IMG/VR virus record: IMGVR_UViG_3300025154_000269
Location: 1 to 35,563 of that record
Origin: a virus
DNA: 35,563 nt
Direction: 5' to 3' (one strand)
The notes under the pieces were generated by a model. It saw only the letters and a program-made list of their open reading frames with translations. It ran no database searches and was not told the origin of the DNA. The position numbers and the translations under genes were made by a program. Position 1 is the stretch's first letter, and every line of letters begins with the position of its first letter. Positions 4,506-25,203 of the stretch are shown piece by piece.

Positions 4506-4540
4506 TTATTTTTCACCTCCTTTGTATCAATATATAACTA

Positions 4541-4870
4541 TTATAAATTTTTATAAAACTCACTTTCATGCTCAATAAATCCATTATTACTATCCAAAAT
4601 ATTAACTCCCTGTCTATATCCATATTTTAATATAATATCTTTACCTATATTCCATGCTATATTTATACTCTCTTCTCCCATTCCATCGTCATGAATAAGA
4701 AATCTTAATCGATTATCCTCTGGAATTAAATGAATTTCTGTAAAATATTTTTGCATTCTTAGACCATTACTACTACAATCCCATAATTCATATCCTTTAC
4801 TTTTAAACACTTTTATTAGTTCTTTTACTTCTGGAAGAGTTTCTAAATTTTTGTAATCTCTATGAAACAT
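4541..4870 (-). CDS. Unknown small phage protein
   Basis: A 109-residue soluble protein with AGAAGG 8-9 nt before ATG. It mixes helix and strand: an N-terminal helix (LPEVKELIKVFKSKGYELWDCS), a strand pair (YFTEIHLIPEDNRLRFLIHDDG) and a C-terminal helix. The arrangement resembles small alpha/beta phage early proteins. No family assigned. It lies between the zinc-finger gene upstream and the ATT-start gene downstream. Confidence 0.65.
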   Translation of the reverse strand: MFHRDYKNLETLPEVKELIKVFKSKGYELWDCSSNGLRMQKYFTEIHLIPEDNRLRFLIHDDGMGEESINIAWNIGKDIILKYGYRQGVNILDSNNGFIEHESEFYKNL

Positions 4871-4902
4871 TTTTATTTCCTTCTTTCTATTATTTTAATA
4901 AC

Positions 4903-5070
4903 TTAATATGTATCATAACTATACATTAATTTCTTATTATCACATTCTTCACAAACTAAATGAACCCAATGTTCTGTGTAACTATCATCATACCACATAT
5001 TGAATTTCTCAGTATGTTCAATTGAAGTATTATTACTATGACAATTTTTACACTCAATATGAAAACCTAT
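4903..5070 (-). CDS. Zinc-finger miniprotein, start uncertain (ATA or leaderless GTG)
   Basis: The protein has CKNC and CEEC pairs about 26 residues apart, a zinc ribbon, with a tryptophan-rich middle. The longest reading starts at GTG 5097, but that codon falls at the predicted transcription start of the promoter at 5104-5132 and would put a perfect AAAAGGAGGTGAG inside the gene. With that Shine-Dalgarno in use, the first ATN codon in frame is ATA 5070-5068 (14 nt spacing), giving 55 residues starting (M)GFHIECKNC. A leaderless GTG start (64 residues) is the alternative. Function unknown. Confidence 0.55.
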   Translation of the reverse strand: MGFHIECKNCHSNNTSIEHTEKFNMWYDDSYTEHWVHLVCEECDNKKLMYSYDTY

Positions 5071-6497: not shown

Positions 6498-8117
6498 TTA
6501 TCTCTTCTTAATAATCCAACTAATTTTATTTGCTTTCACAACCGTATGAACATCAAACTTAGTTCTTAATACCTTACCATTAGCCCACCATTCCTTCTTT
6601 AACCAATCTAATTGTTTTTGAGTTGCAGGTTCATATTTCCACTTTGCTTTTCTATCTAAGAATGTACTATACTTTCTTGATGCATATTTTTCTGCTTCCT
6701 CAATTAGATTAATTAAATTATCATCTTCAGATATGTAATCCTTTGTATTAATTCTATTTGTGGTATCAACCATGTACAATTCAAATATATTCTCCTGTAG
6801 ATTCTTATAGATTGTATAATGTAAATCAGAAGTAATAGATAATGCAAATATTTCATTATCACACCGATACCAATTGAAATACGCTTCGCTAAAATATTCA
6901 CTCATATTAGTCTTAAATAATTTTAATTCTTCAGCAATTAATGCTAATCTCTCAATTTCTTTTTGCTTTGCTAATTCTTCTCTTTCTAACTTTTCTGCTT
7001 TATTCTTTTCCTCACGTTCAATTGCTTCAGTTAATGTTTCTTGATCTTTAATCTCTACACCAAATATATCTGTCATTGTCATTAAATCATGCTTTCGCAC
7101 TATATCAACAACATCAATTATTAAGCAATTAGATTTACTTTCTGATGTTCTGAGTCCCCTTCCTAAACACTGTACGTAGAGTATTTTACTCTTGGTCGGA
7201 CGAGCAAATATAAGTGCTGTGACGTTTTCATTATCATAACCAATTGTAAGTATTCCACAATTTACAATGACTGGAAGCTCTCCATTATTAAATCTATCCA
7301 TAACTTTTTCTCTTCTAGAATCTTCAATGGTAGAATCAATATAATCACAAAGAATTCCATTGTCATTAAATGTTTGAGAAATATCTCTAGCATGAGCAAT
7401 ACCTGATGCAAATACAATAGTTGACTTTCTATCTGAAGCGTGTTTAATATAAGCCTCAACTATAATTTCATTTCTATTATCTGTATTTACCGCATCTTCC
7501 AACTGTCTCTGATTAAATTCTCCTGCTATTGTTTTTACATTTGATAAATCAGTTCCAGAATAAACATAAATTGCTTTAGGTTCACAAAGATAGTTATTTT
7601 TAATCATTTCTAATATTGGTTTTTGATAAATGATTCCATTGAATACTTTCTTCATTTCTAAATTCCACGGAGTAGCACTGAGACCAATTGCCTTTATATT
7701 AGGATTTAACTTATCTAGTATTTTTCTTATTTGTCCACAGGCAGCATGAGCTTCATCAAATATCACTAATTCAAAATCTCCATGCTCAGACATTTGTTCA
7801 AGTCTAGTAGATTTAGAATGTGTTAACGATTGTCTGGACGCAACAACAATACGGTTGCCGATTTCATTCAATGACGCTTGAACAGAACCAATATCTAAAT
7901 CAGGATTAGTATTAAGTAATTTCTCGATAGTCTGCTCTCTTAAAATTGTTGATTGGATAACCAAAAGTACACGACCAACAGTATTATTTGCTATTGCAGA
8001 CATTATGATGGTTTTTCCTGAAGCTGTTGGCAAGGATATGATTCCACTTTCTCCTTCTTTAAGATTGTTTACTGCTTCTACACTTTCTAATTGATATGGT
8101 CTTAATTCATATGCCAT
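6498..8117 (-). CDS. SF2 DEAH-type helicase
   Basis: A 539-residue ATP-dependent nucleic-acid helicase starting at MAYELRPYQ; ATG follows the upstream stop by 1 nt (TAAAATG). Motifs in order: a Q-motif-like LRPYQ (5-9), Walker A PTASGKT (30-36), Walker B DEAH (121-124), SATP (147-150), and the motif V/VI region ending QCLGRGLR (316-323) with the expected arginine finger. The C-terminal third is charged and helical, then closes with a small TQKQLDWLKKEWW domain common at the end of phage helicases. It is related to the restriction-subunit/XPB-like SF2 helicases used in phage replication or recombination. The cluster 9851-6498 (small protein, HTH protein, small protein, helicase) looks like a replication module next to the repeat cluster at 9.9-10.0 kb. 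Confidence 0.93.
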   Translation of the reverse strand: MAYELRPYQLESVEAVNNLKEGESGIISLPTASGKTIIMSAIANNTVGRVLLVIQSTILREQTIEKLLNTNPDLDIGSVQASLNEIGNRIVVASRQSLTHSKSTRLEQMSEHGDFELVIFDEAHAACGQIRKILDKLNPNIKAIGLSATPWNLEMKKVFNGIIYQKPILEMIKNNYLCEPKAIYVYSGTDLSNVKTIAGEFNQRQLEDAVNTDNRNEIIVEAYIKHASDRKSTIVFASGIAHARDISQTFNDNGILCDYIDSTIEDSRREKVMDRFNNGELPVIVNCGILTIGYDNENVTALIFARPTKSKILYVQCLGRGLRTSESKSNCLIIDVVDIVRKHDLMTMTDIFGVEIKDQETLTEAIEREEKNKAEKLEREELAKQKEIERLALIAEELKLFKTNMSEYFSEAYFNWYRCDNEIFALSITSDLHYTIYKNLQENIFELYMVDTTNRINTKDYISEDDNLINLIEEAEKYASRKYSTFLDRKAKWKYEPATQKQLDWLKKEWWANGKVLRTKFDVHTVVKANKISWIIKKR

Positions 8118-8118
8118 T

Positions 8119-8505
8119 TTAATAATCCTCATTTTCTAAATTATTTATCATAATTATATTCATTGGTTTATCAATCTCATATACATTACACTTAAACAAT
8201 TCTTTAATGTTTTTATTAAACATATTTTTAAAATCTGCACCGCTTTTTTCACAATGCAATTCTGTAATCTCATCAGTAGTAAGAACGCTTTTATGTATCA
8301 TAGTTAAACCTTTATTTGCATTATTCTTATCTCTTGCAACCATTGATACACTATAGCAATCGTCAAATCTCCAAGACTTAGGTTTAAGTATCATAGCGAA
8401 TTCATTTTTATTTTCAACTACTAAAGTAATATCTTCATCAGAATTCATGATCTTTACAAATTTTGATGCCGTTTTTACTTCATTAAATTTATTATAATAC
8501 AACAT
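8119..8505 (-). CDS. Unknown protein coupled to the helicase
   Basis: A 128-residue protein starting at ATG 8505, one base after the upstream TAA (TAATATG). Longer in-frame ATGs at 8514-8541 overlap the HTH gene and are less likely. It is mixed alpha/beta (ITLVVENKNEFAMILKPKSW, YSVSMVARDKN), with no catalytic motif I recognise. Its position between the HTH protein and the helicase, with both junctions coupled, suggests a role in the same replication process, for example as a loader or modulator. This is inferred from context only. Confidence 0.75.
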   Translation of the reverse strand: MLYYNKFNEVKTASKFVKIMNSDEDITLVVENKNEFAMILKPKSWRFDDCYSVSMVARDKNNANKGLTMIHKSVLTTDEITELHCEKSGADFKNMFNKNIKELFKCNVYEIDKPMNIIMINNLENEDY

Positions 8506-10201: not shown

Positions 10202-10936
10202 TTAACTTTTATTATTTTTTAATTCTAATGTATCAGCAATAAATTGTCTTCCTTCAATTGTTGATAATATCACATAATTAATACTACCATCTTTATACTT
10301 TTTCTTTGTACCATTCTCAAAATATCCTTGTTTTATGTATTCATCTTTAACATAATATGCACGATTACTTGATTTTGTAAATATATCTTTTAAGAATAAT
10401 TGTTCATATATTTTATCTTGTGTAAACTTCATTTTGTATCCATCTAGTTTAAGCTTAGAATATGTATCTAAACAATTTAGTGTTCTATTGTTTAATTTAG
10501 CTTTTAATTTTTCTTTTTTAGGATTAGTTGGAAAACTTGCTTCTAGACCATTATTTCTAATTAGATTGTGTAAATATTTTGCATCAATGTTCTTACTAAT
10601 TATTATCTTCCTACCATTCAGAACTTCTTCAATTGTATTTTCTACATTATATCCATTAGCAATAGAATCATATTTGTCAATATATTTACCTTCTACATAT
10701 ATTAATTGCATTTTAGTTTTATAAGGACTATCTAAATTTTGCATTTCTTCTATTATCTTAAATGTAAAATTTTCTTCACCATATGTATTCCACGCTTTTT
10801 GCAATTTGTAACTATGATGAGAATTATTGTTTAGTTCATCTATATGTTCATCCCAACGTCTTTCTATATCTAGACTTTCACCAATATAATATGTGTTGTT
10901 TATTTTGTTTATGATTCCATATATTCCTATTGTCAT
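10202..10936 (-). CDS. GIY-YIG nuclease (homing type)
   Basis: A 244-residue protein; ATG 10936 follows GGAG by 8 nt. The N-terminal domain is textbook GIY-YIG: IYGIINK (5-11), YYIGES (16-21), arginines at about 26-27, then HHSYKLQKAWNTYGEENFTFKIIEE, with the family's ENF motif and acidic catalytic residues. The remaining 150 residues contain a charged helical part (KKEKLKAKLNNRTLNCLD) and a C-terminal segment that may read DNA sequence. Such genes are mobile in phages. It has its own promoter (11,097-11,125) and is preceded by a 13-codon leader ORF. It is less likely to be a restriction enzyme, since no partner gene is nearby. Confidence 0.88.
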   Translation of the reverse strand: MTIGIYGIINKINNTYYIGESLDIERRWDEHIDELNNNSHHSYKLQKAWNTYGEENFTFKIIEEMQNLDSPYKTKMQLIYVEGKYIDKYDSIANGYNVENTIEEVLNGRKIIISKNIDAKYLHNLIRNNGLEASFPTNPKKEKLKAKLNNRTLNCLDTYSKLKLDGYKMKFTQDKIYEQLFLKDIFTKSSNRAYYVKDEYIKQGYFENGTKKKYKDGSINYVILSTIEGRQFIADTLELKNNKS

Positions 10937-10998
10937 CAATCTTACTCCTCTATCAATTTATTTATTCTTGTAGTTGTTATAAACATTTATTTTTATAC

Positions 10999-11872: not shown

Positions 11873-13150
11873 TTAGAATAAACTACAGCCATCTGTCTTA
11901 AAATCTTTTATATATGTATTCCATTGTTCTACACTGAGTTTTAAGAATTTTCTTAAACATTTTTTGCATAAATATTGTTCTACATCTCTTCCTAAAAATT
12001 TCATATTCATTGCGATAACATCATTCTTAGTAATTTTATTTCCACAAGTACAAACTTTATTGAAATATTTTGTAGCAATATCTATTTCAATTCCTTTATG
12101 TTCCGCACATTCTTGTATAACCTCTTCATTTGGCTTTGGCCTAATAGCTCCACCATTCCAACAAAGAGGATATTCTTTTACTGTACAATTCATAGCACAC
12201 CATAATTGTCTTTCAATAAAATCTTCTTTTAGAAATTTTTGAAATCTTTCATACATCACTGGATAAAAATATTTATCTAATACCCATGTTGATTTTGTAT
12301 AGTACGGACAAACTAAATGACAACCTACCCTAGAATATCCTTTTTTATATTTAGGATTGAATACTATATTGTTTTTTAGTGTATATAACCAAACATCTTC
12401 TTCTGTCCATTTTCTAATTGGAAGAATTCCCATCCATTCTCTCTCACCCCATCTATCATCAAATTTTTCATCTTGATAACCAGAACGAGTAGAACTTTCT
12501 TCATTTCTCATACCATAAAAGAATAAATATTTTTTATTATCATCTAAATATTCTTTTGTAGCTCCCTCTTTGTATAAAGAGCAACACCAACGATGATGGC
12601 GTGTTGGTATCCCTACTGTTTTAATTTTTTGATAAAATCCTTCTTTTGGACTTATAGTTATACAATCTGGAATAGTTTTAATCATTTTATATGTATCGGA
12701 GCAATCCATAGAAGTATTATTAAACATAATTATAGATTTAATATCTAATTTAGAATTAGTTTGTAATGTTTTATTAACTAAATATCTTGTCAATTCACTA
12801 TCTTTGCCACTAGAAGTAAATATAATTGGCGTATATTCTTTATACTTTTCAATACTACTTTTAATCAAATTGATACTTTCATTCTCTAATTCCTCCAATC
12901 TTCCTTTATTTCTCTCTATTGTTTCCTCCCAAGATTCAATCTCATAAGCTTCTTTCTTATAATCACTAGCAGTAATATTTAATTCATCATCAATATGAAT
13001 TCTTAAAACCTTATGAATTCTACCTTCAACATCATAACATTTAATAATTGATCTATCTAACCAATAATATCCCTCAACTAAATTATACTTCTCAATATCT
13101 ACACCTTTATCTTTTAGAAATCCCAAATAATCTTTAAATACTAAATTCAA
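11873..13150 (-). CDS. PP-loop ATPase, PAPS-reductase/DndC-like
   Basis: A 425-residue protein from TTG 13150, with AAGG 8 nt upstream. GTG 13159 would sit inside that ribosome binding site. The PP-loop SGKDS is at 114-118, after PIIFTS, and is followed by a second nucleotide-binding half (SIIMFNNTSMD). Then come RHHRWCCSLYKEG and GMRNEESSTRSGY, motifs of the PAPS reductase/adenylyl-dependent family seen in DndC-like phage proteins. Two cysteine groups follow (GCHLVCPYYT and CAMNC), possibly an Fe-S site, and a C-terminal zinc ribbon (CTCG...CKKC). The family activates a substrate with ATP for sulfur or nucleophile transfer. Here it could modify tRNA or DNA, or reduce PAPS. No Dnd partners are visible. 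Confidence 0.8.
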   Translation of the reverse strand: MNLVFKDYLGFLKDKGVDIEKYNLVEGYYWLDRSIIKCYDVEGRIHKVLRIHIDDELNITASDYKKEAYEIESWEETIERNKGRLEELENESINLIKSSIEKYKEYTPIIFTSSGKDSELTRYLVNKTLQTNSKLDIKSIIMFNNTSMDCSDTYKMIKTIPDCITISPKEGFYQKIKTVGIPTRHHRWCCSLYKEGATKEYLDDNKKYLFFYGMRNEESSTRSGYQDEKFDDRWGEREWMGILPIRKWTEEDVWLYTLKNNIVFNPKYKKGYSRVGCHLVCPYYTKSTWVLDKYFYPVMYERFQKFLKEDFIERQLWCAMNCTVKEYPLCWNGGAIRPKPNEEVIQECAEHKGIEIDIATKYFNKVCTCGNKITKNDVIAMNMKFLGRDVEQYLCKKCLRKFLKLSVEQWNTYIKDFKTDGCSLF

Positions 13151-13159
13151 TACATACAC

Positions 13160-13353
13160 CTTATTTATTTACATTAAGCAAATAATAAGGAAAACATAAC
13201 TAATTACCCAAACTGTGGCTTTTACATGTACTGCATACGCAAATACACCACAATGCAAATGGTATATGTTTTTATGTTTCTCACACGACTTTATACGGCA
13301 TCCTTACGCATCGGATTTGTAAGATTATTGATTGCTCTGTTCTCAATGCCGAT
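13160..13353 (-). promoter_or_regulatory. Leader region of the PP-loop gene with nested hairpin
   Basis: No gene in about 190 nt. The region 13,214-13,252 can fold as nested helices: TGTGG with CCACA (13,214-13,218 / 13,248-13,252), TGTA with TACA (13,227-13,230 / 13,244-13,247), and TGC with GCA (13,232-13,234 / 13,239-13,241). More G and C is present than in typical spacers. A regulatory leader is plausible; I do not recognise a known riboswitch. Confidence 0.4.
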
Positions 13354-13627: not shown

Positions 13628-13678
13628 GTACAGATTTGTACCTGTGAATATTGTATCACTTTGTATTAATATTGTCAA
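13628..13678 (-). promoter_or_regulatory. Consensus promoter with palindrome at the transcription start
   Basis: Minus-strand TTGACA (13,673-13,678), 17-nt spacer, TACAAT (13,650-13,655). A perfect GTACA-gatt-TGTAC palindrome (13,628-13,641) lies over the predicted start point and is a good repressor operator candidate. This promoter heads the left arm. Confidence 0.8.
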
Positions 13679-13699: not shown

Positions 13700-14280
13700 A
13701 AAATTAATTATTCAAATGCTATTAAAATATTTTCATCAATTTTTAGATGGTCGTATATATGATATAATTGCATCGTCTTGAGTTGTAAAGTGTACGCCCC
13801 ATATAGTAGAAGGGATTATTAGAGTGTGATATAATTGGTTAGTATCAAGGGTTTAGATGGTGTTTATAGGATTAGATATTTTGATTTTTTGGATGTATAA
13901 TTATGAATTATTATTTGATGTTTTTGTTCGATAGGATTGAGATTAATTTATGATTTGAATTTTAAATTGGATGGAAATTTATAGATCATAGGATGAATTA
14001 ATAAAGGTTGAATATGTTAAAGAAACTGTATGAGAGTAGGATTTGTAGGTTATTTTGTATGATTGATTTATTGGATATTTAGTGAGATTATTATATTGAT
14101 TTATGAGATTTTATTGTTTAATTTGTAAAATTGTTTGACTTTTGATAAGTTTTGTGAATTGGAAAATGAATTTATTTGGCTGAAAAATGTTGTGTTGATT
14201 ATGTTTTTGCGATGTGAGAACGAAGGGGGAAATTGGGGAGTAGATTGTGGTGAGATGAGATTTATTTTGTGAGATTGAAA
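13700..14280. other. C-depleted spacer (left flank of the centre)
   Basis: No gene. By hand count 13,801-14,280 contains 8 C in 480 nt on the plus strand, whereas G and T are abundant. It has no ribosome binding sites and no repeats I can define. It mirrors the G-depleted right flank. Confidence 0.8.
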
Positions 14281-14344
14281 ATTATTTTAATTTTGTGTAA
14301 TTTTAGTATTGACAATTTTGTTAAAGTGTGATTTATATTTATTT

Positions 14345-14830
14345 TATGAAATGGCTGTAATCGGCTCGTAGTTTGGGTTTTGTAACGAAGTAGATGTACT
14401 GTGTCGAATACTGTCGAATAAAAGGAGATAATGTTTGTAATCATAGCCGGGGTATATGCCAACTTTGGCATGGAAATTGAAAGTGAATACAGAAGCAGGT
14501 TTTTGCTATAGGCTAATACTATGACAAACTGAAAACAGTATGGGCCGATTATCTGCCGAACCCTACAAACCGCATTATACAAGGGTTCTTGCTCAAATCT
14601 GAATGTGACACAATGTACTTGTGTAACATTCGGTAAGAATAGATGGTACAATTGTATGGGTCGGATGAATTGAAGAGCTTAAAAGGGCTATTTTGTGGCA
14701 GAAACGAGAAGTGGATGAAGGAGCATAATTGTCCTGGACTTGATACCTGCTAATGATAGCAGAACACAAGATCATTGGGCATTAATTGCATACGTATATG
14801 AGTATATACGTTTATACGTACAAAATATCG
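14345..14830. ncRNA. Candidate large structured RNA or origin core
   Basis: A roughly 480-nt island of balanced composition between the two biased flanks, with no credible gene. Helices visible on the plus strand: 14,358-14,367 with 14,542-14,551 (10 bp, long-range); ATGCCA/TGGCAT at 14,456-14,471; ACTG/CAGT with AAAA loop at 14,528-14,539; GAACCC/GGGTTC (14,558-14,563 / 14,583-14,588); an 11-bp hairpin with one internal mismatch at 14,601-14,631; CTGCT/AGCAG near 14,747-14,762; and an 8-bp ACGTATAT/ATATACGT hairpin near 14,792-14,811. Several are nested or adjacent as in large phage RNAs of the GOLLD/ROOL kind, but I cannot assign a class. The strand is uncertain, and an origin with secondary structure is an alternative. 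Confidence 0.5.
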
Positions 14831-14869
14831 TTTTGCATAACATAGGCGAAGTTGTTGAAGTATTAATAC

Positions 14870-15640
14870 TTTGAATATCAAACTATATTATAATCAAACT
14901 AATATCACATAACCTCAAAATACAATCATACTACTATATAATACAGTCACTTGACTACATCACACGTTCATTATAATCATAAACACATTATCCTATGATA
15001 ATAATCATATCACATGATCAATGTGATCACATCCAAATAAACATAACCATTAAGTTATAGTAAATATAATGCATTACTAATATTATCTAATATTACCTAC
15101 TAATAACTATAATCTTATGCAACACCAACCATATTTACCTATGACGATATATAAACAAATCATTATATCACTAATCACTTATACCATACATAATGAATAC
15201 ATTATAATGCTAATCCATACAATCCCTATCAACTTACTATACTATAAACACTTTACCGAACTAAAGGATTCGCAAATCATACACAATTATAAATATCCAT
15301 CATCCTGCATAAATACTCACATAGCATATACCTATGCCATCATACACTAATCCATATACCTATATCAATACCAACTAAACCAACCAAAATACTATACATT
15401 AACCAAATCTTAACTCCAATAAACCATAATAACTCTAATCAATTACCATGCCAAACAACCCAAAACTACCATACCCTGGTTGGGTACTAAATCAAAATTT
15501 CCACACAAACCCTAAAATAAAGTTTTATAGAGTAACCTATACCTCAAATCCTCAAAACGCTTACAATGCCCTTTACGTGCCTCTAATACCTATTACATTA
15601 TTTATTGATTCAACCCCAAATCTCTATCATTTTTAACATT
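14870..15640. other. G-depleted spacer (right flank of the centre)
   Basis: No credible gene. By hand count 14,881-15,480 has 25 G in 600 nt on the plus strand, and two 60-nt lines have none. Sequence is A/C/T with many ATCA and CAT strings. Small open frames here lack ribosome binding sites. Confidence 0.8.
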
Positions 15641-15697: not shown

Positions 15698-15828
15698 ATT
15701 GACATTATCAATCATGTCCAATCATAATCTATCATATCCAAAACAATATCACACTATCAGTATAAACAAATAATAAAATATCATAAATCCTTAAATAAAA
15801 TAAAGGTATATCACTAACCAATCACGAA

Positions 15829-15881: not shown

Positions 15882-16226
15882 ATGTTGAATACTTTAAAAT
15901 CCTACTCAGTATATGGTATCCGTGTTAACGCTGATGATGAGTCCTACAACATTGGAGATACATGTCGCTATAGTTATGAGTGGGATTATGAAAATGATTG
16001 TAGCACCTACAATACAGATACACCTATTAAACTGCCTGGAACATGCTCCTTACACTTAGTAATATATGAAGACACAACTAACACTGAGTTAATAAATAAA
16101 ATTAATGAAATCAAAAATAAATATGCAGGAGAACAAATAGTTATTATTGGTGGCTATGATTATGAATACGGATCTGATGACAACGAAATAATCATAGAAG
16201 ATGCTGAAGTATTACTTATAGCGTAA
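15882..16226 (+). CDS. Unknown acidic protein, first gene of the right arm
   Basis: A 114-residue protein with AAAAGGAG before ATG. It is acidic and tyrosine-rich (DTCRYSYEWDYENDCSTYN), followed by an alpha/beta part (SLHLVIYEDTTNTELINKINEIKNKYAGEQIVIIGGYDYEYG) that ends in a strand (AEVLLIA). The C-terminal half resembles a small ferredoxin-like fold, but this is only by eye. The position suggests early expression. Function unknown. Confidence 0.7.
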   Translation: MLNTLKSYSVYGIRVNADDESYNIGDTCRYSYEWDYENDCSTYNTDTPIKLPGTCSLHLVIYEDTTNTELINKINEIKNKYAGEQIVIIGGYDYEYGSDDNEIIIEDAEVLLIA

Positions 16227-16261
16227 ATAAATATACTATGTTAGGTGTACATTAACACTGT

Positions 16262-16291
16262 TTGCTATTGTATACCGATAGATAGTATAAT
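16262..16291 (+). promoter_or_regulatory. Promoter of the 16,341 gene
   Basis: TTGCTA (16,262-16,267), 18-nt spacer, TATAAT (16,286-16,291). The transcript would have a leader of about 43 nt containing a short GCGG/CCGC dyad. Confidence 0.65.
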
Positions 16292-16340
16292 TAATGCTAT
16301 CATATTAAAAAGCGGAGATCCCGCAAAAGGAGTTTTTAAA

Positions 16341-17057
16341 ATGACTAACACAGAAATGATCAAAAAATTTGAACTCAAGGTTATAACACAGAACGAAAAA
16401 GAAGGTCTTAAGGTTGGTTTTGGAAAACCTACTACTTCAGAAATCGAGTTTATTAAAGCTAACAAAACGGAGATTATTTTCGAAATCAAACTCCAAAATG
16501 AAAAAGAACTTCTGGAAAAACTCAACAAAGATATCCCATATACTCTAAATGATTCGACATCATACGGAATTTATAATGGTATTTCCGAATTCGAAATTGG
16601 GGAAATAATAACAGATATCAAATCAAAACTTGGTTTTAAGAAATACTTAGAGCACTCCAAAATTGCAAAAACCTTAACCAAAGACCCTGAAATCGAACAA
16701 ATAGCCATTAATAATTATCAACCGGATTCTGAAAGTAAAAATTGGAACGATGAATATCGTACTTGGTTTAGGTCGGCAGTTGAGAAAAAGACTGCTCCCG
16801 GTAAAGGATTTATTTCTAATCAAATTATTAGAGAAAAAATAACAAATATCGTTTTAGGTATTATGGACAAAGAACAGGGAAAAGAAAATGCAGAATTACA
16901 AATCTTTGCTAAAGCAAAACAAACAGGAGTAAAGCAAGTCTTAAAATCATACATGACAGAATGTAATGATCCTAATGAAGAATGTAGTCAAGATCATGTA
17001 GTAATTTATGCTATGCCGAACGGCACAAAAAAGACTGAACGGATGCATACTTGGTAA
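16341..17057 (+). CDS. Unknown 238-residue phage protein
   Basis: I start at ATG 16341 (MTNTEMIKKFELKV) because AAAAGGAG precedes it; upstream in-frame starts overlap the promoter. The protein is lysine-rich and soluble. Its first half (KVITQNEKEGLKVGFGKPTTSEIEFIKANK) looks alpha/beta and its second half mostly helical. Near the end are CNDPNEEC and HVVIYAMPNGTKKTERMHTW. No family recognised. It forms its own transcription unit with promoter and terminator. Confidence 0.7.
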   Translation: MTNTEMIKKFELKVITQNEKEGLKVGFGKPTTSEIEFIKANKTEIIFEIKLQNEKELLEKLNKDIPYTLNDSTSYGIYNGISEFEIGEIITDIKSKLGFKKYLEHSKIAKTLTKDPEIEQIAINNYQPDSESKNWNDEYRTWFRSAVEKKTAPGKGFISNQIIREKITNIVLGIMDKEQGKENAELQIFAKAKQTGVKQVLKSYMTECNDPNEECSQDHVVIYAMPNGTKKTERMHTW

Positions 17058-17110
17058 ACTTATTAATATTCCATAATGGGATAATAATTGGAAATCTCAT
17101 CAGGTAGTTT

Positions 17111-17142
17111 AGGACTTGTTGATTATAAGTCCTTTTCTTTTT
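17111..17142 (+). terminator. Intrinsic terminator
   Basis: AGGACTT/AAGTCCT stem (17,111-17,117 / 17,127-17,133) followed by TTTCTTTTT. Confidence 0.8.
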
Positions 17143-17456
17143 GTCATTTTTAGCATAACAGAATTAGTATAACAGATCATGGTATATGGTTGTAGAATCA
17201 AACTATATTCCATTTTTACTACTCTATTTTTATCCCTGTTACAATCTTACCATTAACACTATTAAACCTCTTATATCGCGTCCTATGTCCTCTCATAGCA
17301 TTTTATTAACCTTCTATTCTCTGTACTATTTTTATCCTATATAATAGGAAACAATAATCCTAACAAACCTCTAAATACCTCTAAACCCACTAGACATAAC
17401 CCTCTATAAATGTTAAAATAAATAAACAAATTGAATTAATAAAGGAGTGTTTACTA
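17143..17456. other. G-poor intergenic spacer
   Basis: About 310 nt without a gene. It is rich in CCT/ACC strings with very few G. A GTTAAAATAAATAAA box at 17,412-17,426 matches the box seen in front of other units. No clear -35/-10 pair. Confidence 0.5.
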
Positions 17457-18110
17457 ATGATGATTCAAGAATTTATCTCCCTCACAAACCTTTCTGTATC
17501 CTATGATGAATACACTAACACCATTGAACCTAAATACATGACTAGCACATTAGATAAGCAAGATTTTTGCAAACGATACATAAACATAAACACAACTAAT
17601 ATAAAGCCTCTTGCAAAAGAACTCAAAGAAATTAAAGAAGCTATCAAGGATTTCAAAGGCAATCGTAGTTTTGCCAAAAGAGAAGAAAAGAAAATCCTTG
17701 AAAACCACAAAGAAAAACTAAAAGAATATAACTCCCAAAATTGGGTAGACAGAAACTTTATCAAGACTCTAGAATATAACCTGAATGTAAGCATCTATAA
17801 ACTCTACGAAATGTATGGTAATGACGCAACTATCCAAATTATCTACAATGATGGCACTGAATGCAACGTAACAGGAACAGAAATTGTTACAGGGGAAATA
17901 ACTCCTAAATTACAGCAAATTGCATATGCAAGTTATCAAGACGGATACATCATATACGATACCTTATCAGGTAACTTAGATACTAAATGGGATATAGAAA
18001 TAGAAGGAGAAAAAGAAACTGACTGGGACGCAAGGGAAGAATACTTTGATCAAGTAGAAATCAAGTTCGGCACTAAATGGGGAATCAAACATAATAATAC
18101 GCCAATTTAA
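17457..18110 (+). CDS. Unknown 217-residue protein
   Basis: AAAGGAG lies before ATG. Residues of about 55-110 are highly charged and helical (KELKEIKEAIKDFKGNRSFAKREEKKILENHKEKLKEY), a probable coiled coil. A C-terminal beta-like part follows (TIQIIYNDGTECNVTGTEIVTGEITPKLQQIAYASYQDG) and an acidic end. No enzyme motif. It is a monocistronic unit closed by a terminator that overlaps the stop. Confidence 0.7.
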   Translation: MMIQEFISLTNLSVSYDEYTNTIEPKYMTSTLDKQDFCKRYININTTNIKPLAKELKEIKEAIKDFKGNRSFAKREEKKILENHKEKLKEYNSQNWVDRNFIKTLEYNLNVSIYKLYEMYGNDATIQIIYNDGTECNVTGTEIVTGEITPKLQQIAYASYQDGYIIYDTLSGNLDTKWDIEIEGEKETDWDAREEYFDQVEIKFGTKWGIKHNNTPI

Positions 18111-18140
18111 AGCAGATTAAAACCTGCTTTTTCTTTTTGC
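18109..18140 (+). terminator. Intrinsic terminator overlapping the stop codon
   Basis: AAAGCAG/CTGCTTT stem with an 8-nt loop, then TTCTTTTT. Confidence 0.82.
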
Positions 18141-18230
18141 CTACAATCTATCCATTCTTACTATTAAACCTCTTAAACCCCTATTCTAAAGCCTTACACA
18201 GAAGCAATAAATTTTACAAATCCATAACTA

Positions 18231-18282
18231 TAAAAATAAATATTATCACAAATGGTTTTCTCTATTGTTTCTGTGATATACT
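18231..18282 (+). promoter_or_regulatory. Promoter with upstream A/T box
   Basis: The box TAAAAATAAATATTATC (18,231-18,247) precedes TGGTTT (18,253-18,258), an 18-nt spacer and an extended -10 TGATATACT (18,274-18,282). The promoter of the 20,062 gene has the same layout. Confidence 0.65.
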
Positions 18283-18323
18283 ATAGGAAATCCACTAATT
18301 AAATTTAAAGGAGTGCGGAAAAA

Positions 18324-18605
18324 ATGAGTAAAAACCAATGGTATGTACATACTGAGGGTTCAATTGGTTATGTTCGCCACAATCTAATCCAATATACACC
18401 AACTAAACAAGATGCTGAAAAACTACTAAAACAAGTAAAGAAAATTGATAAACTATGTTATGTTGACTTTGTTTGGAAATCAGATTTGCATCTTCCATTT
18501 TCTAAACTTCACGGAAAAACACCTATAAAAGTTGAAAGCATAATGGATGTATTAATTCCACTAATTGAAAATGATTTAAGATCATGGAATAAAGCATTAG
18601 TTTAG
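18324..18605 (+). CDS. Unknown small protein
   Basis: A 93-residue basic protein; AAAGGAG precedes ATG. Sequence features are an aromatic start (NQWYVHTEGSIGYVRHNL), a helix (TKQDAEKLLKQVKKIDKL) and a closing helix (SIMDVLIPLIENDLRSWNKAL). Monocistronic, with its own promoter and terminator. Function unknown. Confidence 0.65.
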   Translation: MSKNQWYVHTEGSIGYVRHNLIQYTPTKQDAEKLLKQVKKIDKLCYVDFVWKSDLHLPFSKLHGKTPIKVESIMDVLIPLIENDLRSWNKALV

Positions 18606-18636
18606 AGTAGTAAAAAATACTACTCTTTTTTCTTTG
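18604..18636 (+). terminator. Intrinsic terminator
   Basis: AGAGTAGTA/TACTACTCT 9-bp stem, A5 loop, then a T-rich tail; overlaps the stop codon of 18,324-18,605. Confidence 0.88.
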
Positions 18637-18766
18637 CCTATGTTTTGTCTATACTCCTTCCATATCCCTCTATAATCCTTTCAGACCTTCCACAATGCCA
18701 TATAAGCCCTCAGATATCAAATCTAATACAAATACACCACTAAAGCAGTAATAAGGCCACAAACAA

Positions 18767-18823
18767 TGTAAAATAATTATTTATGTTTTTGCTATTGTAA
18801 TTGCGCTATATTTTTAGTACAAT
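18767..18823 (+). promoter_or_regulatory. Promoter with A/T box
   Basis: TGTAAAATAATTAT (18,767-18,780), then TTGTAA (18,795-18,800), 17-nt spacer, TACAAT (18,818-18,823). Confidence 0.65.
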
Positions 18824-18857
18824 ACATATATAAAATAAATTATTGGAGGTTTTAAAT

Positions 18858-19106
18858 ATGTCGCTATCTTATAAAATTAAATCTCTTCCAGAAGCTGAAA
18901 AAACCATTTTTATGTCTATGCTAAATAAATGCCTAAAAATTCGTTCCCTATGGTGCAAATCATTACTCGACAAAACGAAAACTAATAGCCAGTGTGAGTT
19001 TGCACAAAGCAAATTTATCCAAGCAGAAAAAGCACTAAAGGAAAAATTTAATTATCTACACCTAGACAATTTTGATTTAGAAACCATAAAATATTGCAGT
19101 ATCTAA
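18858..19106 (+). CDS. Unknown small helical protein
   Basis: An 82-residue protein starting MSLSYKIKSLPEAEK at ATG 18858, after TTGGAGG. Nearly all helical; two or three amphipathic helices (FMSMLNKCLKIRSLWCKSLLDK, FIQAEKALKEKFNYL). Could be a small adaptor or regulator; no family. It shares a transcript start with, and is separated by a terminator from, 19,168. Confidence 0.65.
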   Translation: MSLSYKIKSLPEAEKTIFMSMLNKCLKIRSLWCKSLLDKTKTNSQCEFAQSKFIQAEKALKEKFNYLHLDNFDLETIKYCSI

Positions 19107-19136
19107 AAGGAGTAGAAATACTTCTTTCTTTTTTCT
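19107..19136 (+). terminator. Intrinsic terminator
   Basis: AAGGAGTA/TACTTCTT stem with a GAAA loop directly after the stop codon, followed by TCTTTTTTC. Confidence 0.8.
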
Positions 19137-19167
19137 AAAATAAACAATAAAGGAGCACGGATCACAT

Positions 19168-19350
19168 ATGGCAAGTGAACAAACTTTAAAAGCAATCCAG
19201 TCCTTTTATGTTGACGGATATCTAGCAGTAGACTTTAAATTATTTGGTGTACCTCAGACCACAGAAGAAGCGGAAATCTGGATGTCCAAATATCAAAGAA
19301 TCAGAAATCAAATATTTGAGTACAATCAAACTGAGGAATCTAAAATATAG
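19168..19350 (+). CDS. Unknown 60-residue protein
   Basis: AAAGGAG precedes ATG. The protein (MASEQTLKAIQSFYVDGYLAVD...) is helical with an acidic end. No separate promoter is obvious in the 30 nt before it, so it may depend on read-through of the preceding terminator. Function unknown. Confidence 0.6.
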   Translation: MASEQTLKAIQSFYVDGYLAVDFKLFGVPQTTEEAEIWMSKYQRIRNQIFEYNQTEESKI

Positions 19351-19366
19351 ATTCCTTTTTCTTTTT
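19334..19366 (+). terminator. Intrinsic terminator overlapping the end of the gene
   Basis: AGGAATCTA/TAGATTCCT 9-bp stem with the stop codon of 19,168-19,350 in it, then TTTTCTTTTT. Confidence 0.88.
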
Positions 19367-19373
19367 CCTAAAT

Positions 19374-19421
19374 GTTAAAATAATATTAGACATTGAGTCA
19401 GATAAATGATATTATAGGTTA
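19374..19421 (+). promoter_or_regulatory. Probable promoter with A/T box
   Basis: GTTAAAATAATATTA (19,374-19,388) precedes an extended -10 TGATATTAT at about 19,408-19,416. The -35 is weak. Confidence 0.5.
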
Positions 19422-19453
19422 TCAGATTAATTACATAAGGAGTTGAGCCACAA

Positions 19454-19807
19454 ATGGAATTTATAAAGGTAAAAGACATTACTAAATTAGTTCATGAAGT
19501 GCAGGAAATCGGTTACATACAAACTGAACGCAATAAAGAAGGAAAGGCAACAGGTTATAAAATTCGATTCTACGCTAAAATTTGGGGTTATGATTACGGA
19601 GATTATACAAAGACGTATAAAAATGCTTTGAAAATTGCTGAAAGGAATTACACGCAAATGCTAGAGGGGATCGGCAAAAATAAATTTTACAATCAAGAAT
19701 TAGATATGTGGTTTCCGAATAAAGAAAAATGTGATAAATATAATGATGGAAATATAGTAGCAGAAGAGAGAAGAAAGGAAGTATTAAAAAGGACTGAAGG
19801 AGCTTGA
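19454..19807 (+). CDS. Unknown 117-residue protein
   Basis: AAGGAG precedes ATG. Basic and lysine/tyrosine-rich; the segment IQTERNKEGKATGYKIRFYAKIWGYDYGDYTKTYKNALKIAE suggests a three-stranded sheet followed by a helix, as in small DNA-binding domains such as integrase-type arm-binding or AP2-like folds. That is by eye only. The terminator overlaps its 3' end. Confidence 0.65.
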   Translation: MEFIKVKDITKLVHEVQEIGYIQTERNKEGKATGYKIRFYAKIWGYDYGDYTKTYKNALKIAERNYTQMLEGIGKNKFYNQELDMWFPNKEKCDKYNDGNIVAEERRKEVLKRTEGA

Positions 19808-19827
19808 AAGAGCTTCTTTTCTTTTTG
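19797..19827 (+). terminator. Intrinsic terminator
   Basis: AAGGAGCT/AGCTTCTT 8-bp stem, 6-nt loop, T-rich tail; includes the stop of the preceding gene. Confidence 0.85.
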
Positions 19828-19975
19828 CTATACATTATACCATTTACTAATCTAAAAGCCTTAAATAACCCTTTCTGGCCTTATCAATGCTATCCGGATA
19901 ATCTTGCTATACTCACATTCTTAATTCAATATTTTACTTTCAAACTCTTGTTTTATCTTATTTGATTATATAAAG

Positions 19976-20027
19976 TGTAAAATAATTTTATTTAATATGG
20001 TTTTTTGTATTGTTTTTATGGTATAAT
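19976..20027 (+). promoter_or_regulatory. Promoter with A/T box and extended -10
   Basis: TGTAAAATAATTTTAT (19,976-19,991), TGGTTT (19,998-20,003), 18-nt spacer, TGGTATAAT (-10 at 20,022-20,027). Confidence 0.72.
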
Positions 20028-20061
20028 AAATTAGAAAATTAAATATAAGGAAGTGTTGAAC

Positions 20062-20322
20062 ATGCGAGAGAAAAATCAAGACAAAGTTTACCATTGCGCA
20101 AAGATTAAAACTGCAATATCTCACGCCATTAAAGACGGAATTATAAATGTTGCTGAAGACTTTGGAAGTCAAGAAGAATTAAACGAATGCATACAAGTAG
20201 CAGAAGAGAAAGGGAACTACAGAGATTACTGGTGCGACAAAGAAAACAATACATACTTTAGGTTCCAAATCGAACAAAACGATGATACAATCTATATAGA
20301 TTTAGGGTATAGAATTAATTAG
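20062..20322 (+). CDS. Unknown small acidic protein
   Basis: An 86-residue protein; I use ATG 20062 after AAGGAAG. Sequence: a helical first part (KIKTAISHAIKDGIINVAEDFGSQEELNECIQVAEEK) and a beta-hairpin-like end (TYFRFQIEQNDDTIYIDLGYRIN). Function unknown. Its own promoter and terminator flank it. Confidence 0.65.
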   Translation: MREKNQDKVYHCAKIKTAISHAIKDGIINVAEDFGSQEELNECIQVAEEKGNYRDYWCDKENNTYFRFQIEQNDDTIYIDLGYRIN

Positions 20323-20349
20323 AGAACTTTAAATAGTTCTCTTTTCTCA
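20321..20349 (+). terminator. Intrinsic terminator
   Basis: AGAGAACT/AGTTCTCT 8-bp stem with a 6-nt loop beginning in the stop codon, then TTTCTC. Confidence 0.85.
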
Positions 20350-20374
20350 ATTTATAAAAGGAGGTGAATAAAAA

Positions 20375-20539
20375 ATGAATCCTGAACTATCCGAGGACAC
20401 CAGAGCAACAACCATAATAATATCTAATAAATCCTATGATTTACACATAATAAATGACTTATATTACATTTGCACTCATGGGACACACCAGATCATAAAA
20501 ATAATGACCGAAAAAGAATATAATGATATTAACATCTAG
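20375..20539 (+). CDS. Unknown 54-residue protein
   Basis: AAGGAGG, 8 nt, then ATG. The protein (MNPELSEDTRATTIIISNKSYDLHIINDLYYI...) is beta-like. It lies 26 nt after the preceding terminator without an obvious promoter, so it probably relies on read-through. A terminator overlaps its stop. Confidence 0.6.
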   Translation: MNPELSEDTRATTIIISNKSYDLHIINDLYYICTHGTHQIIKIMTEKEYNDINI

Positions 20540-20561
20540 GACTGAATAAGTCCTTTTTGTT
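20538..20561 (+). terminator. Intrinsic terminator
   Basis: AGGACT/AGTCCT stem, GAATA loop, then TTTTTGTTTG. Confidence 0.82.
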
Positions 20562-20748
20562 TGCTTTTCTCTGTCCACGTAGGAAATACATTTTTAATAA
20601 ATGTCCTTATACGGTGTACCAACCCCCAAAACTTTGTACGCTTGTGAAAATATATAATCCTTTTCCACCAAATGCCCATTTTAATGGAATACTGGGACCA
20701 AGAAACGCAATAAAACAAGATATAATTATTGTGTTTATATCATTTCTG

Positions 20749-20757
20749 TGATATTAT
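20749..20757 (+). promoter_or_regulatory. Extended -10 promoter
   Basis: TGATATTAT with a T-rich upstream region; no good -35. It is 32 nt before the 20,789 gene. Confidence 0.5.
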
Positions 20758-20788
20758 TAGTTAACATATTTAAGGAGGTTTTCACCCC

Positions 20789-21325
20789 ATGAAGGTTTTA
20801 AAACTTGAATCGCTCCAAACTGAATTTGCAGGGACAATCACAAAAAATGGAGCCAAGTATGACGTTACATATCCTAATAGTACTAAAGTATTTTCCTTTA
20901 AATGCAATCTCAAAGCATTAGCGGAAAGATTACATATTCAAATTGCCGATGTCGATCTAGCAGATAAAAATGTCTATACCGAAAAGTATGATAAAGTGGA
21001 AATTGCAAGACAAAATAATGAAATGGCTTGGAATTTAGTAATCAGTAACAGGGATAAAATTCCACAATTGATTAAAGAGCTTGCAGTATTCGCGCAAACT
21101 CAAGACAAAGATACGGTTTTAAAAAATAGCTCATCTATATTGTTTGCGGATATAAACATAAAAAAGCAAACTATCGAATTTATTACTTTTGTTTCTATCG
21201 GTCACGAAGAACTAAAGAAAAAAGCGAATCATTATTACTGGGAAGTTTGCACCTTGTCAAATGGTAGGGTTGCAGGGAATTTAGACAATTTAATAAATAG
21301 AGTATTAAGGGAATTTGGAGCCTGA
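20789..21325 (+). CDS. Unknown 178-residue protein
   Basis: AAGGAGG precedes ATG. The start (MKVLKLESLQTEFAGTITKNGAKYDVTYPNS) looks like a beta barrel or small sheet; helices follow, then a beta strand (ADINIKKQTIEFITFVSIG) and a helical end. Cytoplasmic. No motif recognised. Its neighbour downstream, with a cysteine pair, may be functionally linked, but there is no direct evidence. Confidence 0.65.
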   Translation: MKVLKLESLQTEFAGTITKNGAKYDVTYPNSTKVFSFKCNLKALAERLHIQIADVDLADKNVYTEKYDKVEIARQNNEMAWNLVISNRDKIPQLIKELAVFAQTQDKDTVLKNSSSILFADINIKKQTIEFITFVSIGHEELKKKANHYYWEVCTLSNGRVAGNLDNLINRVLREFGA

Positions 21326-21344
21326 AAAGGCTCTTTTATTTTTG
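21318..21344 (+). terminator. Intrinsic terminator
   Basis: GAGCCT/AGGCTC stem with a GAAA-type loop overlapping the stop, then TTTTATTTTTG. Confidence 0.85.
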
Positions 21345-21483
21345 TTCCAAATACTAGGAAACCTATATTGTATAGGGTATCATATATCCCTTAGAACGTC
21401 ATAATTGGCACTCTAAGGGTTTTATATTGTTTCTGCTATTAATCCTACTAATAGCAAAACATAACCCTTTAAACCTCAGTAAA

Positions 21484-21536
21484 CATAAAAATAATTTTAT
21501 CAGACATGACTATTTTTATTAATTATGTGCTATAAT
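21484..21536 (+). promoter_or_regulatory. Promoter with A/T box and extended -10
   Basis: CATAAAAATAATTTTAT (21,484-21,500) and TGCTATAAT (-10 at 21,531-21,536). Confidence 0.7.
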
Positions 21537-21573
21537 ATTAATATCAGATACATATTAAGAGGAGGTTTTTGAA

Positions 21574-22776
21574 ATGGCTGAATTTAAAATTTATTCCATT
21601 CCTGAAATGAACTTTCCCGAACTCGAAACCAAACTTGCTAAACTTAACAAAAAGGCTGTAAAACTAAATTGCGAACCGATTGTGTTAACTTTAGTTGGTA
21701 CAGTGGATCTTAAAATTTCCGTTCCTTGGTCAAATTATCCAGTCTTAGTAAGACATAATCAAATCACTATTTCCGGTGTAGCTCCAATTATTGCAGGATG
21801 GGAGTTAATCGCAAGTTGCGAAGGATTTGAAAATGGAACATTAATTAAGTCAATCCCTGAAAAGGAATATCCTGAAAAGTATCGTCAAATGTTAGTTTGC
21901 GAACATTGCAACAGTGACCGCAACAGAAAATATACCTTTATTGTGCGGAACGTAGAAACTAATGAATACAAAATGGTAGGAAAATCATGTTTAAAAGACT
22001 TTTTGGGCCATGCAGATCCAAATTTTTACGCTCGGATGTTGGAATATCTTGCAGAGTTTGAAGAAAGGGAATACAGTGAAATCCCTTTTGGATACAAGTC
22101 AAGGATTGAAACAGAAAACTATTTAACCTTTGTAGCAGCCTGTATCCGTGAAAATGGATGGTTATCCAGAACTAAAGCAAAGGAAGAAGAGGAAGGAGGA
22201 ATATCAACCGCAGACTATGCAGAAATATCAATGGAGAATTTTGGAAAGATAGTCACGGATTACAGAGGAAATATTATAGAATACCCAATCCCAACTGAAC
22301 ACGACAAAGAATTAGCAAAAAAATCTCTGCAATGGGCCAAGGAATTAACAGACTTGAAAAACGATTACCTTTACAATATCAACCTTCTTGCTCATGAATC
22401 CTCAATAACTCACAAGGAATTAGGTTTTGTTGCTTCAATCGTTTCAAGTTTCACCAGACAAATGGAAAGGGAAATCATAAACGAGCAGAAGGAAACGGCA
22501 CAAAAACAAGAATTAATATCTCAGTATATCGGCAGTATCGGCGAAAAAATCCAAACAGAGCTAACCTATATCAATTCATTCAGTTTTGAAACACAATGGG
22601 GAGCAGGACACATACACAAATTCTTAGATACAGAAGGAAATGTTTTTATCTGGAAATCATCGAAATATATTGAAGTGGATCAAGGTCAATTAGTTAAAAT
22701 CAAAGGCACAATAAAAGATCACAGCGAATACGCCGGAGCAAAGCAAACAATACTCACAAGATGTAAAATTGCTTGA
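21574..22776 (+). CDS. Large conserved-looking phage/plasmid protein with cysteine motif
   Basis: A 400-residue protein; GAGGAGG precedes ATG. After an alpha/beta N-terminal part, CEHC (109-112) is followed by RNRKYTFIVRN and GKSCLKDFLG (136-145). This cysteine-plus-GxxCLxDFLG arrangement occurs in a family of unknown function found on phages and large plasmids. The middle is helical and acidic. The last 80 residues (GAGHIHKFLDTEGNVFIWKSSKYI... LVKIKGTIKDHSEYAGAKQTILTRCKI) read like an OB-fold, suggesting single-stranded nucleic-acid binding. The largest gene of the single-gene array, so possibly its main product. Exact role unknown. Confidence 0.75.
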   Translation: MAEFKIYSIPEMNFPELETKLAKLNKKAVKLNCEPIVLTLVGTVDLKISVPWSNYPVLVRHNQITISGVAPIIAGWELIASCEGFENGTLIKSIPEKEYPEKYRQMLVCEHCNSDRNRKYTFIVRNVETNEYKMVGKSCLKDFLGHADPNFYARMLEYLAEFEEREYSEIPFGYKSRIETENYLTFVAACIRENGWLSRTKAKEEEEGGISTADYAEISMENFGKIVTDYRGNIIEYPIPTEHDKELAKKSLQWAKELTDLKNDYLYNINLLAHESSITHKELGFVASIVSSFTRQMEREIINEQKETAQKQELISQYIGSIGEKIQTELTYINSFSFETQWGAGHIHKFLDTEGNVFIWKSSKYIEVDQGQLVKIKGTIKDHSEYAGAKQTILTRCKIA

Positions 22777-22785
22777 AAGGATACT

Positions 22786-22819
22786 AAAGACTAGGCCACA
22801 AACCTAGTCTTTTCTTTTG
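22786..22819 (+). terminator. Intrinsic terminator
   Basis: AAAGACTAGG/CCTAGTCTTT 10-bp stem, then TCTTTTG. Confidence 0.88.
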
Positions 22820-23000
22820 CCTATAAATATAATATAAGAAGCCACCAGACGCGATATAAGCGGTCAGAACATCATATCTGATATAATCCTCTATCAACAT
22901 TATTCTACCCTTTAAAAATCCATTTTTATTGGGTATTTTGATTTTAAGAAGTGGGTTAGGAGTAGGGTTTTAGGGTTTATGTTTTATCGATTTTATTGAA

Positions 23001-23056
23001 TTGTAAAATAATTTTATAAAAATTGATTGACAAATTATATAAATTCATAGTAAAAT
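23001..23056 (+). promoter_or_regulatory. Promoter P1 with A/T box
   Basis: TTGTAAAATAATTTTATAAA (23,001-23,020), TTGACA (23,027-23,032), 18-nt spacer, TAAAAT (23,051-23,056). Confidence 0.7.
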
Positions 23057-23100
23057 GGATTGAACGGTAAATTTAATTAATAATCATTATTTATATAATC

Positions 23101-23141
23101 GTAAAATAATATCTTGACATACTCCTAAATTTGATTATAAT
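23101..23141 (+). promoter_or_regulatory. Promoter P2 with A/T box
   Basis: GTAAAATAATAT (23,101-23,112), TTGACA (23,114-23,119), 16-nt spacer, TATAAT (23,136-23,141). Confidence 0.75.
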
Positions 23142-23173
23142 TATAAGTAAGCATTAAAGGAGGTTTTTACATA

Positions 23174-23530
23174 ATGAATAAAACTGAAAAGGCAATTATC
23201 CTTAAGCAATATCACGATATGTTCTACGCTCAGTCAGTCCTAGAAATTGATAAGTCAGATTCTATTAGAGAATTTTCATTCTTGCTAAAATCTTTAGGAA
23301 TGACTAAAGAAAAATACGAAGTTGAAAATAAAATACTATCAGAAGAAAAAGGAATAACTGGCACAGCTAAAGAAATGTATTCTTTAATATTTGAATCATT
23401 CGCAAAATATAATTGTTATGTTAACTACGACTTAAAAGAAATTGATCTTTATTATGATTCGCTCGAATGGAAAATGACACAAGAAGAAAACAAATGCCAC
23501 AAAGCAAGAATAAGTTATCTGACCAACTAA
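23174..23530 (+). CDS. Unknown 118-residue helical protein
   Basis: AAGGAGG precedes ATG. The protein is mainly helical and acidic (MNKTEKAIILKQYHDMFYAQSVLEIDKSDSIREF...). No motif. It has two tandem promoters, so it may be strongly or doubly regulated; a terminator follows the stop directly. Confidence 0.65.
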   Translation: MNKTEKAIILKQYHDMFYAQSVLEIDKSDSIREFSFLLKSLGMTKEKYEVENKILSEEKGITGTAKEMYSLIFESFAKYNCYVNYDLKEIDLYYDSLEWKMTQEENKCHKARISYLTN

Positions 23531-23560
23531 AGGAGGGTAAACCTCCTATTTTCTTTATCT
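23531..23560 (+). terminator. Intrinsic terminator
   Basis: AGGAGG/CCTCCT stem with a GTAAA loop directly after the stop, then ATTTTCTTT. The stem itself looks like a ribosome binding site, but no start codon follows. Confidence 0.7.
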
Positions 23561-23652
23561 AATAGTGTTTTTACCTTTAATTAGTTTGAAGTCCTTAGAA
23601 GTGTCATTCTGAGCGTGTAACGCTAATATAATGTATAAAGGAGATGTTAAAT

Positions 23653-24084
23653 ATGAAAGGTTATAAACTTGCAAATGGAAACTATATCACTGGCAAAGAA
23701 ATTCAAGCAAGGAATTCTAAATTTAAAAAAGATCAAAAAATATCAAGGGAATTGTTCGCTAGAAATCAGGAACTAAATGATAAAATTATCACAGCTTCAA
23801 TTTGCAGCAACATGATAAAACAGATTAAAGACCGCGAAGCACTAATTAAAAACAACATCATTAGAGGGGAAATTATTCAATCATTACGGAGCAATAATCC
23901 TTTTACTTATCGGAAATTCTTGATTATATGGGATCTTATCAACTCTGATTATAATCAGGTATTATATGATCTTAATCGAGGTAAAATTAATAAGGATGAT
24001 ATAGTTGGCGCAATTGATTATATTAATAAATTTTCAGAAAATTTAATAGACGAATACTGGAAAGATACATTAATTAAACCTTAA
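23653..24084 (+). CDS. Unknown 143-residue helical protein
   Basis: ATG 23653 after AAAGGAG. Starts MKGYKLANGNYITGKEIQARN; basic and helical throughout, with asparagine-rich loops. There is an ALIKNNIIRGEIIQSLRSNNPFTYRKFLIIWDLINSDYNQVLYDLNRGKINKDDIVGAIDYI segment. Function unknown. No convincing promoter in the 90 nt upstream. Confidence 0.65.
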   Translation: MKGYKLANGNYITGKEIQARNSKFKKDQKISRELFARNQELNDKIITASICSNMIKQIKDREALIKNNIIRGEIIQSLRSNNPFTYRKFLIIWDLINSDYNQVLYDLNRGKINKDDIVGAIDYINKFSENLIDEYWKDTLIKP

Positions 24085-24113
24085 GACTAGAAAATAAAAT
24101 TCTAGTCTTTTTC
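24083..24113 (+). terminator. Intrinsic terminator
   Basis: AAGACTAGAA/TTCTAGTCTT 10-bp stem, A-rich loop, then TTTTTC; overlaps the stop codon. Confidence 0.88.
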
Positions 24114-24559
24114 TATGCTCATTCAGCCCGTTAAACTCATTTTCCCTTTTCAATCCTTTACAAACTAAAAACACACGAACAGAAACGGCCTTTCCTGCCC
24201 TCAGATTGTATTACCCTATATAATCTTACCTTAATACATTTCAAACGTCTCAGAATCAAAATAGGGTTATATCTGGTATCGGATCAATAATTAACCCTTA
24301 AATTGTTTGTAAGAATAGTACAATAGAATAGGACTTTTACCTATATACAAATATAATATTTTAGTTTAAAATAAGGTACATAGAGAAGCACACGAACAAA
24401 ACCTGCTAGGAAGTAGTTAGTAGGCCAAGACATAAATCCAGAAATAATTTTCTTTAACCTATTGACTTAGTAACCACAATCCATTAAAATTAACTCAAGA
24501 ACAAATACATAGTGCCTACGCAAAATAGGACAAAAGGAGGTAATCAGACTCTTAACAAA
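24114..24559. other. Long spacer without genes
   Basis: About 450 nt. The first part is CT-rich and G-poor like the other spacers of this arm. The second part (24,360-24,540) is A-rich, and AAAGGAGG at 24,533-24,540 is not followed by a good open frame. No promoter of consensus quality seen. Confidence 0.5.
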
Positions 24560-25176: not shown

Positions 25177-25203
25177 TCGAATTAAGAAAGGTGGTAATAA
25201 TTA

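Follow-up and report, generated by a model that had tools for sequence, protein, structure and literature searches.

Mirror-image strand bias at the divergent centre of a probable SPβ-related giant phage points to a possible packaging junction

In a 35,563-nt viral sequence (IMG/VR record IMGVR_UViG_3300025154_000269; "the window" denotes this whole stretch), the centre from which genes diverge lies between two flanks of mirror-image composition, the left nearly free of C and the right nearly free of G on the plus strand. The phage groups of the window, of Bacillus phage SPβ and of Psychrobacillus phage Perkons have this position and this composition in common. Synteny supports a location of the centre at the packaging junction. 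That the centre is the packaging or terminal junction of an SPβ-like phage, with the flanks serving 3' tails, is our preferred explanation, to which we give about even odds.

Composition of the divergent centre

An exact recount on the plus strand yielded 8 C in 480 nt at 13,801-14,280 and 25 G in 600 nt at 14,881-15,480, identical to the values in an earlier note on this DNA. Across the record, the lowest C count per 480 nt (8) falls at 13,857-14,336, with a runner-up elsewhere of 37, and the lowest G count per 600 nt (23) falls at 14,878-15,477, with a runner-up of 32. The left flank is a clear outlier within the record, and the right flank is the most extreme among a few G-poor stretches. 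Further G-poor stretches in the window (4,481-4,960 and 12,731-13,210) lie in the left arm, where their sign is that arm's own.

An ORF check of the window found no long ORF over either flank, in agreement with the earlier view that coding does not account for the bias. The description of the core as balanced holds only approximately, since 14,281-14,880 is mildly G-rich on the plus strand (G 22.3%, C 12.7%). Read outward, the strand of both flanks has a composition of about A 0.43, C 0.22, T 0.31 and G 0.03. Because the G+C content of the flanks is near the genome level, G has mostly been swapped for C and not lost to A or T. The left flank folds weakly, averaging about -4 kcal/mol per 200 nt vs -11 for comparable DNA; the folding energy of the right flank is average. 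A tRNA search found none, a nucleotide search of the 5-kb centre against phages gave no match, and the Bacillus subtilis Chi sequence AGCGG was not found at the junctions of the window, L003 (a relative described below) and Perkons; where Chi or DnaA boxes do occur, they are sporadic. The features of the centre are collected in Table 1.

Table 1. Features at and around the divergent centre of the window
Feature	Position	Strand	Remarks
Imperfect palindrome GTACAGATTTGTAC	13,628-13,641		Directly downstream of the leftward promoter-like -10; operator-like; kept in aligned relatives; candidate repressor site
Promoter-like TTGACA-17-TACAAT, first leftward gene	13,650-13,678	-	Conserved in relatives; outside flank
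Left flank, C-less on plus strand (outward strand G-less, A/C/T-rich)	13,780-14,350		From C count; three relatives alike
29-nt block CTTCGTTCTCACATCGCAAAAACATAATC	14,196-14,224 (approximate)	-	Identical in every relative showing the pattern
Core between flanks, mildly G-rich on plus strand	14,350-14,870		Terminal repeat or terminase site, as predicted from gene order shared with SPβ (pac region) and Perkons (terminal repeat)
Conserved motif AACATAGGCG(A/C)A	within core, 14,350-14,870		Shared with relatives
TACGTATA array in core	14,792-14,819		Present in three members, absent from G007
G-C skew sign flip	14,850-14,875		Cumulative skew peak at about 14,860; relatives similar relative to conserved motif
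Right flank, G-less on plus strand (outward strand G-less)	14,870-15,480		From G count; three relatives alike
Promoter-like TTGACA-18-CATAAT, before first rightward gene	15,699-15,728	+	Consensus match only, match number not above chance; outside flank

Relatives and counterparts in SPβ and Perkons

Metagenomic relatives were found with the PAPS-reductase-like gene on the left side of the centre (L007/G003, 230 kb, 65% protein identity; L004-L006 and L008 are near-identical copies), with the window's helicase (L003/G001, 84% identity) and with the conserved 29-nt block of the left flank (G007). The mirror pattern was present at the divergent centre in all four distinct members (window, L003, L007/G003 and G007) and always had the same sign, with the outward strand G-poor. 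The symmetry that the earlier note had read from the window is therefore borne out there and in its three relatives. Flanks of the window and a relative are mostly 50-85% identical where they can be aligned, and of the letters at aligned sites that differ, 3-8% are C in the left flank and 6-9% are G in the right, against a mixture in the core. The bias thus persists at sites that differ, which indicates that it is maintained while the sequence changes, as a check proposed in the earlier note had envisaged. In L009 (PAPS 41%) the mirror pattern was absent. The end of L010 at the core was rejected as a contig end, since the stretch had merely been cut there.

The helicase of L003 (8,834-11,524) contains a Hint/LAGLIDADG intein and that of the window (6,498-8,132) does not, and the left arm of the window carries HNH and GIY-YIG homing-endonuclease-like genes (2,915-3,787 and 10,202-10,939). 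The YonO-like polymerase gene is split in G003 (29,126-32,818), G006 and G002 and intact in G007 (27,950-30,511), suggesting an insertion, for example an intron with a homing gene. Additionally, the window encodes a GmrSD_N-domain protein on a phage (25,967-27,349).

The window probably belongs to a giant siphophage related to SPβ. The nearest relatives of the G003 DNA polymerase are those of Geobacillus E3, Perkons, Clostridioides phiCDIF1296T and the Lactococcus 949 group; the G003 terminase is nearest to those of Thomasclavelia, Lysinibacillus and SPβ-like phages. YonO-type RNA polymerases in G003 and G007 are 46-55% identical to the Perkons and SPβ enzymes, the two pieces in G003 showing 55 and 52% identity to SPβ YonO. 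Outward from the centre of G003 (14.6 kb), the YonO-like RNA polymerase (29.1-32.8 kb), HU (35.4 kb) and the terminase (48.1 kb) follow on one strand; G007 has its intact polymerase and HU arranged likewise, and the same order is found in SPβ (yonO, yonN, yonF) and in Perkons. None of these genes falls within the 35.6-kb window, where the left arm stops after 13.6 kb, and the synteny runs via the relatives.

As the two contigs part over the final ~20 kb of G003, G003 and G006 were combined into a composite 268-kb map and not into a closed circle. The divergence concerns G003 210,649-230,300 and G006 90,001-104,156 (scattered 86-88% matches, near-identical elsewhere) and may reflect differences between strains or a chimera at the end of a contig. 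The windowed scan of G and C suggested in the earlier note places the minima of both at the centre, in the record and in the composite map, where 480-nt windows reach 3.1% G (next 4.8%) and 3.3% C (next 4.4%); set against other spacers, the centre stays the most extreme place in both, and the pattern thus survives the comparison with spacers that the earlier note had named as able to refute it. Most genes on the map point outward and meet at a convergence point about 104 kb from the centre. The arms have a G excess on the outward strand and the flanks the opposite sign, so that the reversal of the usual skew noted earlier is confirmed. GC skew in the window is flat over 13-26 kb. In the early/accessory arm the skew fades to about zero over the 10-20 kb next to the centre while genes still point outward (window 16,000-26,000 and, on the composite map, the 20 kb that precede the centre), and the opposite arm retains its skew.

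The window centre is syntenic with the yonP-yonR gap of SPβ, in which the pac site was placed by restriction mapping (PMC8270828), and with the annotated terminal repeat of Perkons. SPβ 64,221-64,521 has 6.7% C and 27% G, the lowest C in 45 kb, and is followed by G-poor DNA, with another such stretch on the far side of yonS. In SPβL1, L3, L5, L7 and phi3T, the C-less stretch, a core of ~200 nt and the G-less stretch are contiguous, while SPβL2 resembles SPβ in that yonR-yonS-like genes separate these three elements from a further G-less stretch. The pac region of the SPβ group (phi3T, SPβL1-L7) is like the window family in gene order, divergent genes and C-less and G-less flanks of the same sign; it differs in flanks of 200-400 nt, the shorter core, the lack of detectable sequence similarity and, in SPβ and SPβL2, in having yonR-yonS inside the right side. 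In SPβ, yonR-yonS (65,062-66,114) seem to be an insertion that parts the right G-less flank from the pac core, and they are absent from SPβL1 and L7.

The centre of Perkons is, according to its record, a 264-bp direct terminal repeat of balanced composition (C 13%, G 16%), and mirror flanks of ~500 nt surround it (left, C 5.5% and G 25%; right, G 7.7%). In the whole Perkons genome, C and G reach their minima in these flanks. As in the window family, genes diverge here and the YonO-like polymerase, HU and the terminase lie on the left, although the right flank is less extreme. A pair statistic (a 200-nt C-less followed by a G-less stretch, within 700 nt) ranked the centre first in the window, in G003, in Perkons and in 45 kb of SPβ, with runners-up close behind in the window and in G003 at this short scale. 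Between the window, SPβ and Perkons groups we found no sequence similarity at the centre, local alignments being no better than shuffles. A shared pac motif (TATACCCC-like strings, seen by eye in all three) was rejected on the same grounds.

The mirror pattern was absent at the divergent centres or ends of Sundance, 949, TR-TP1, CB473P1, E3 and phiCDIF1296T. Since these include terminal-repeat phages and phages with similar genes, packaging in general does not require the pattern, and its absence from Sundance led us to reject it as a general rule for terminal-repeat phages.

Predicted DNA ends and alternative explanations

At a packaging junction, the terminase would cut the replicated concatemer at the divergent centre, and the region would become the two ends of the linear virion DNA, each flank making up ~0.6 kb of sub-terminal DNA. 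At either end, the strand with the 3' terminus would be G/T-rich and almost without C, and its partner with the 5' terminus A/C-rich and almost without G. Resection of the 5' strand or incomplete lagging-strand synthesis could then expose 3' tails lacking C, which would form no G-C hairpins and would suit RecA-type or annealing recombinases well as substrates, aiding circularisation upon infection and concatemer formation later. RecA prefers TG-rich single-stranded DNA (PMC3763553). The average folding of the right flank weakens the hairpin argument, and the mild G excess of the core and the missing Chi sequence also count against the packaging reading. A terminal repeat between the flanks would have each of its strands as the 3' strand at one end, so the repeat could not be biased both ways, which would account for the less biased core. 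That the window family cuts its DNA here, and that 3' single strands profit from the asymmetry, is our inference. SPβ is thought to be a headful packager from pac and Perkons has short repeats; the chemistry of the ends may therefore differ. A binding platform for a single-strand-binding protein, one of the ideas in the earlier note, is compatible with such packaging ends.

The predicted ends of the window family are telomere-like in that the 3'-ended strand is G/T-rich and C-poor at both. They differ in that the bias lies ~0.1-0.6 kb inside the ends and involves neither a simple repeat nor telomerase, so the likeness is an analogy only. Tentatively, and with more doubt than for the junction itself, we suggest that SPβ-like phages might keep a telomere-like end asymmetry for hairpin-free recombination tails, a rule that would outlast sequence similarity.

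A bidirectional replication origin would likewise place forks at the centre, with a first ~0.6 kb of lagging-strand template that is G-free and unstructured and eases helicase loading. The genes are all directed away from the centre, the TACGTATA array lies in the core, and cumulative GC skew turns near the centre in Perkons (1,265, within 1.3 kb) and at a distance of 7.6 kb on the 268-kb map. That distance does not pinpoint an origin, and the skew minimum is displaced by 4-8 kb in the window family. The flank sign also opposes the leading-strand G excess of the arms, the skew of which is explained by gene direction alone, DnaA boxes were not found in the window or L003, and the origin of SPβ itself is unknown in the literature (PMC8270828). 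We consider an origin possible but unlikely. Somewhat less likely still is a role in outward transcripts, in which long G-free, C-containing RNAs would serve as leader sequences or, as Rho-loading (rut) sites, would end stray core transcription. Such RNA would be richer in C than in G and unstructured, as rut sites are, and the right flank of phi3T reaches 36% C and 1% G over 100 nt, so that Rho loading by the C-rich, G-free outward strand is possible, especially in phi3T. Against this, the promoter-like sites of the neighbouring genes do not lie within the flanks, and an Rfam search gave no match. The YonO late operon begins upstream of yonK (PMC5467207), for which reason a YonO late promoter at the centre was rejected. 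This position, together with that of the conserved left promoter-like site, disfavours the leader RNAs that the earlier note had entertained.

Two further explanations seem improbable to us, and to a similar degree. The terminase small subunit, HU or a partition protein could read the base pattern of one strand in the duplex; the conserved 29-nt block, repeated short motifs, the position at the predicted packaging junction and the nearby HU gene of the relatives fit such an array of protein sites, but three groups that share the bias without sharing sequence do not resemble a specific binding array. Alternatively, a functionless mutational relic might arise if an often single-stranded 3' strand gathered C-to-T and A-to-G changes. 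The inward strand is indeed rich in G and T and poor in A and C, which resembles deaminated single strands, yet its rise in G equals its rise in T, G+C stays near the genome level, and in phi3T and SPβL1 G stands for C almost one for one. This replacement makes pure deamination unlikely and deamination alone insufficient.

Implications for SPβ-like phages

Packaging junctions are a known kind of site; a search of the open-access literature found no description of mirror strand-biased flanks as their mark. The replication and packaging of SPβ remain largely unmapped despite fifty years of study, and a composition mark present in three phage groups without shared sequence offers a testable location for the DNA ends. 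If the suggested telomere-like rule holds, the mirror pattern would predict packaging junctions from sequence alone. The mark would also allow packaging sites to be found in metagenomic phages without virions. The mark further suggests selection on strand make-up at viral DNA ends, in parallel to telomeres.
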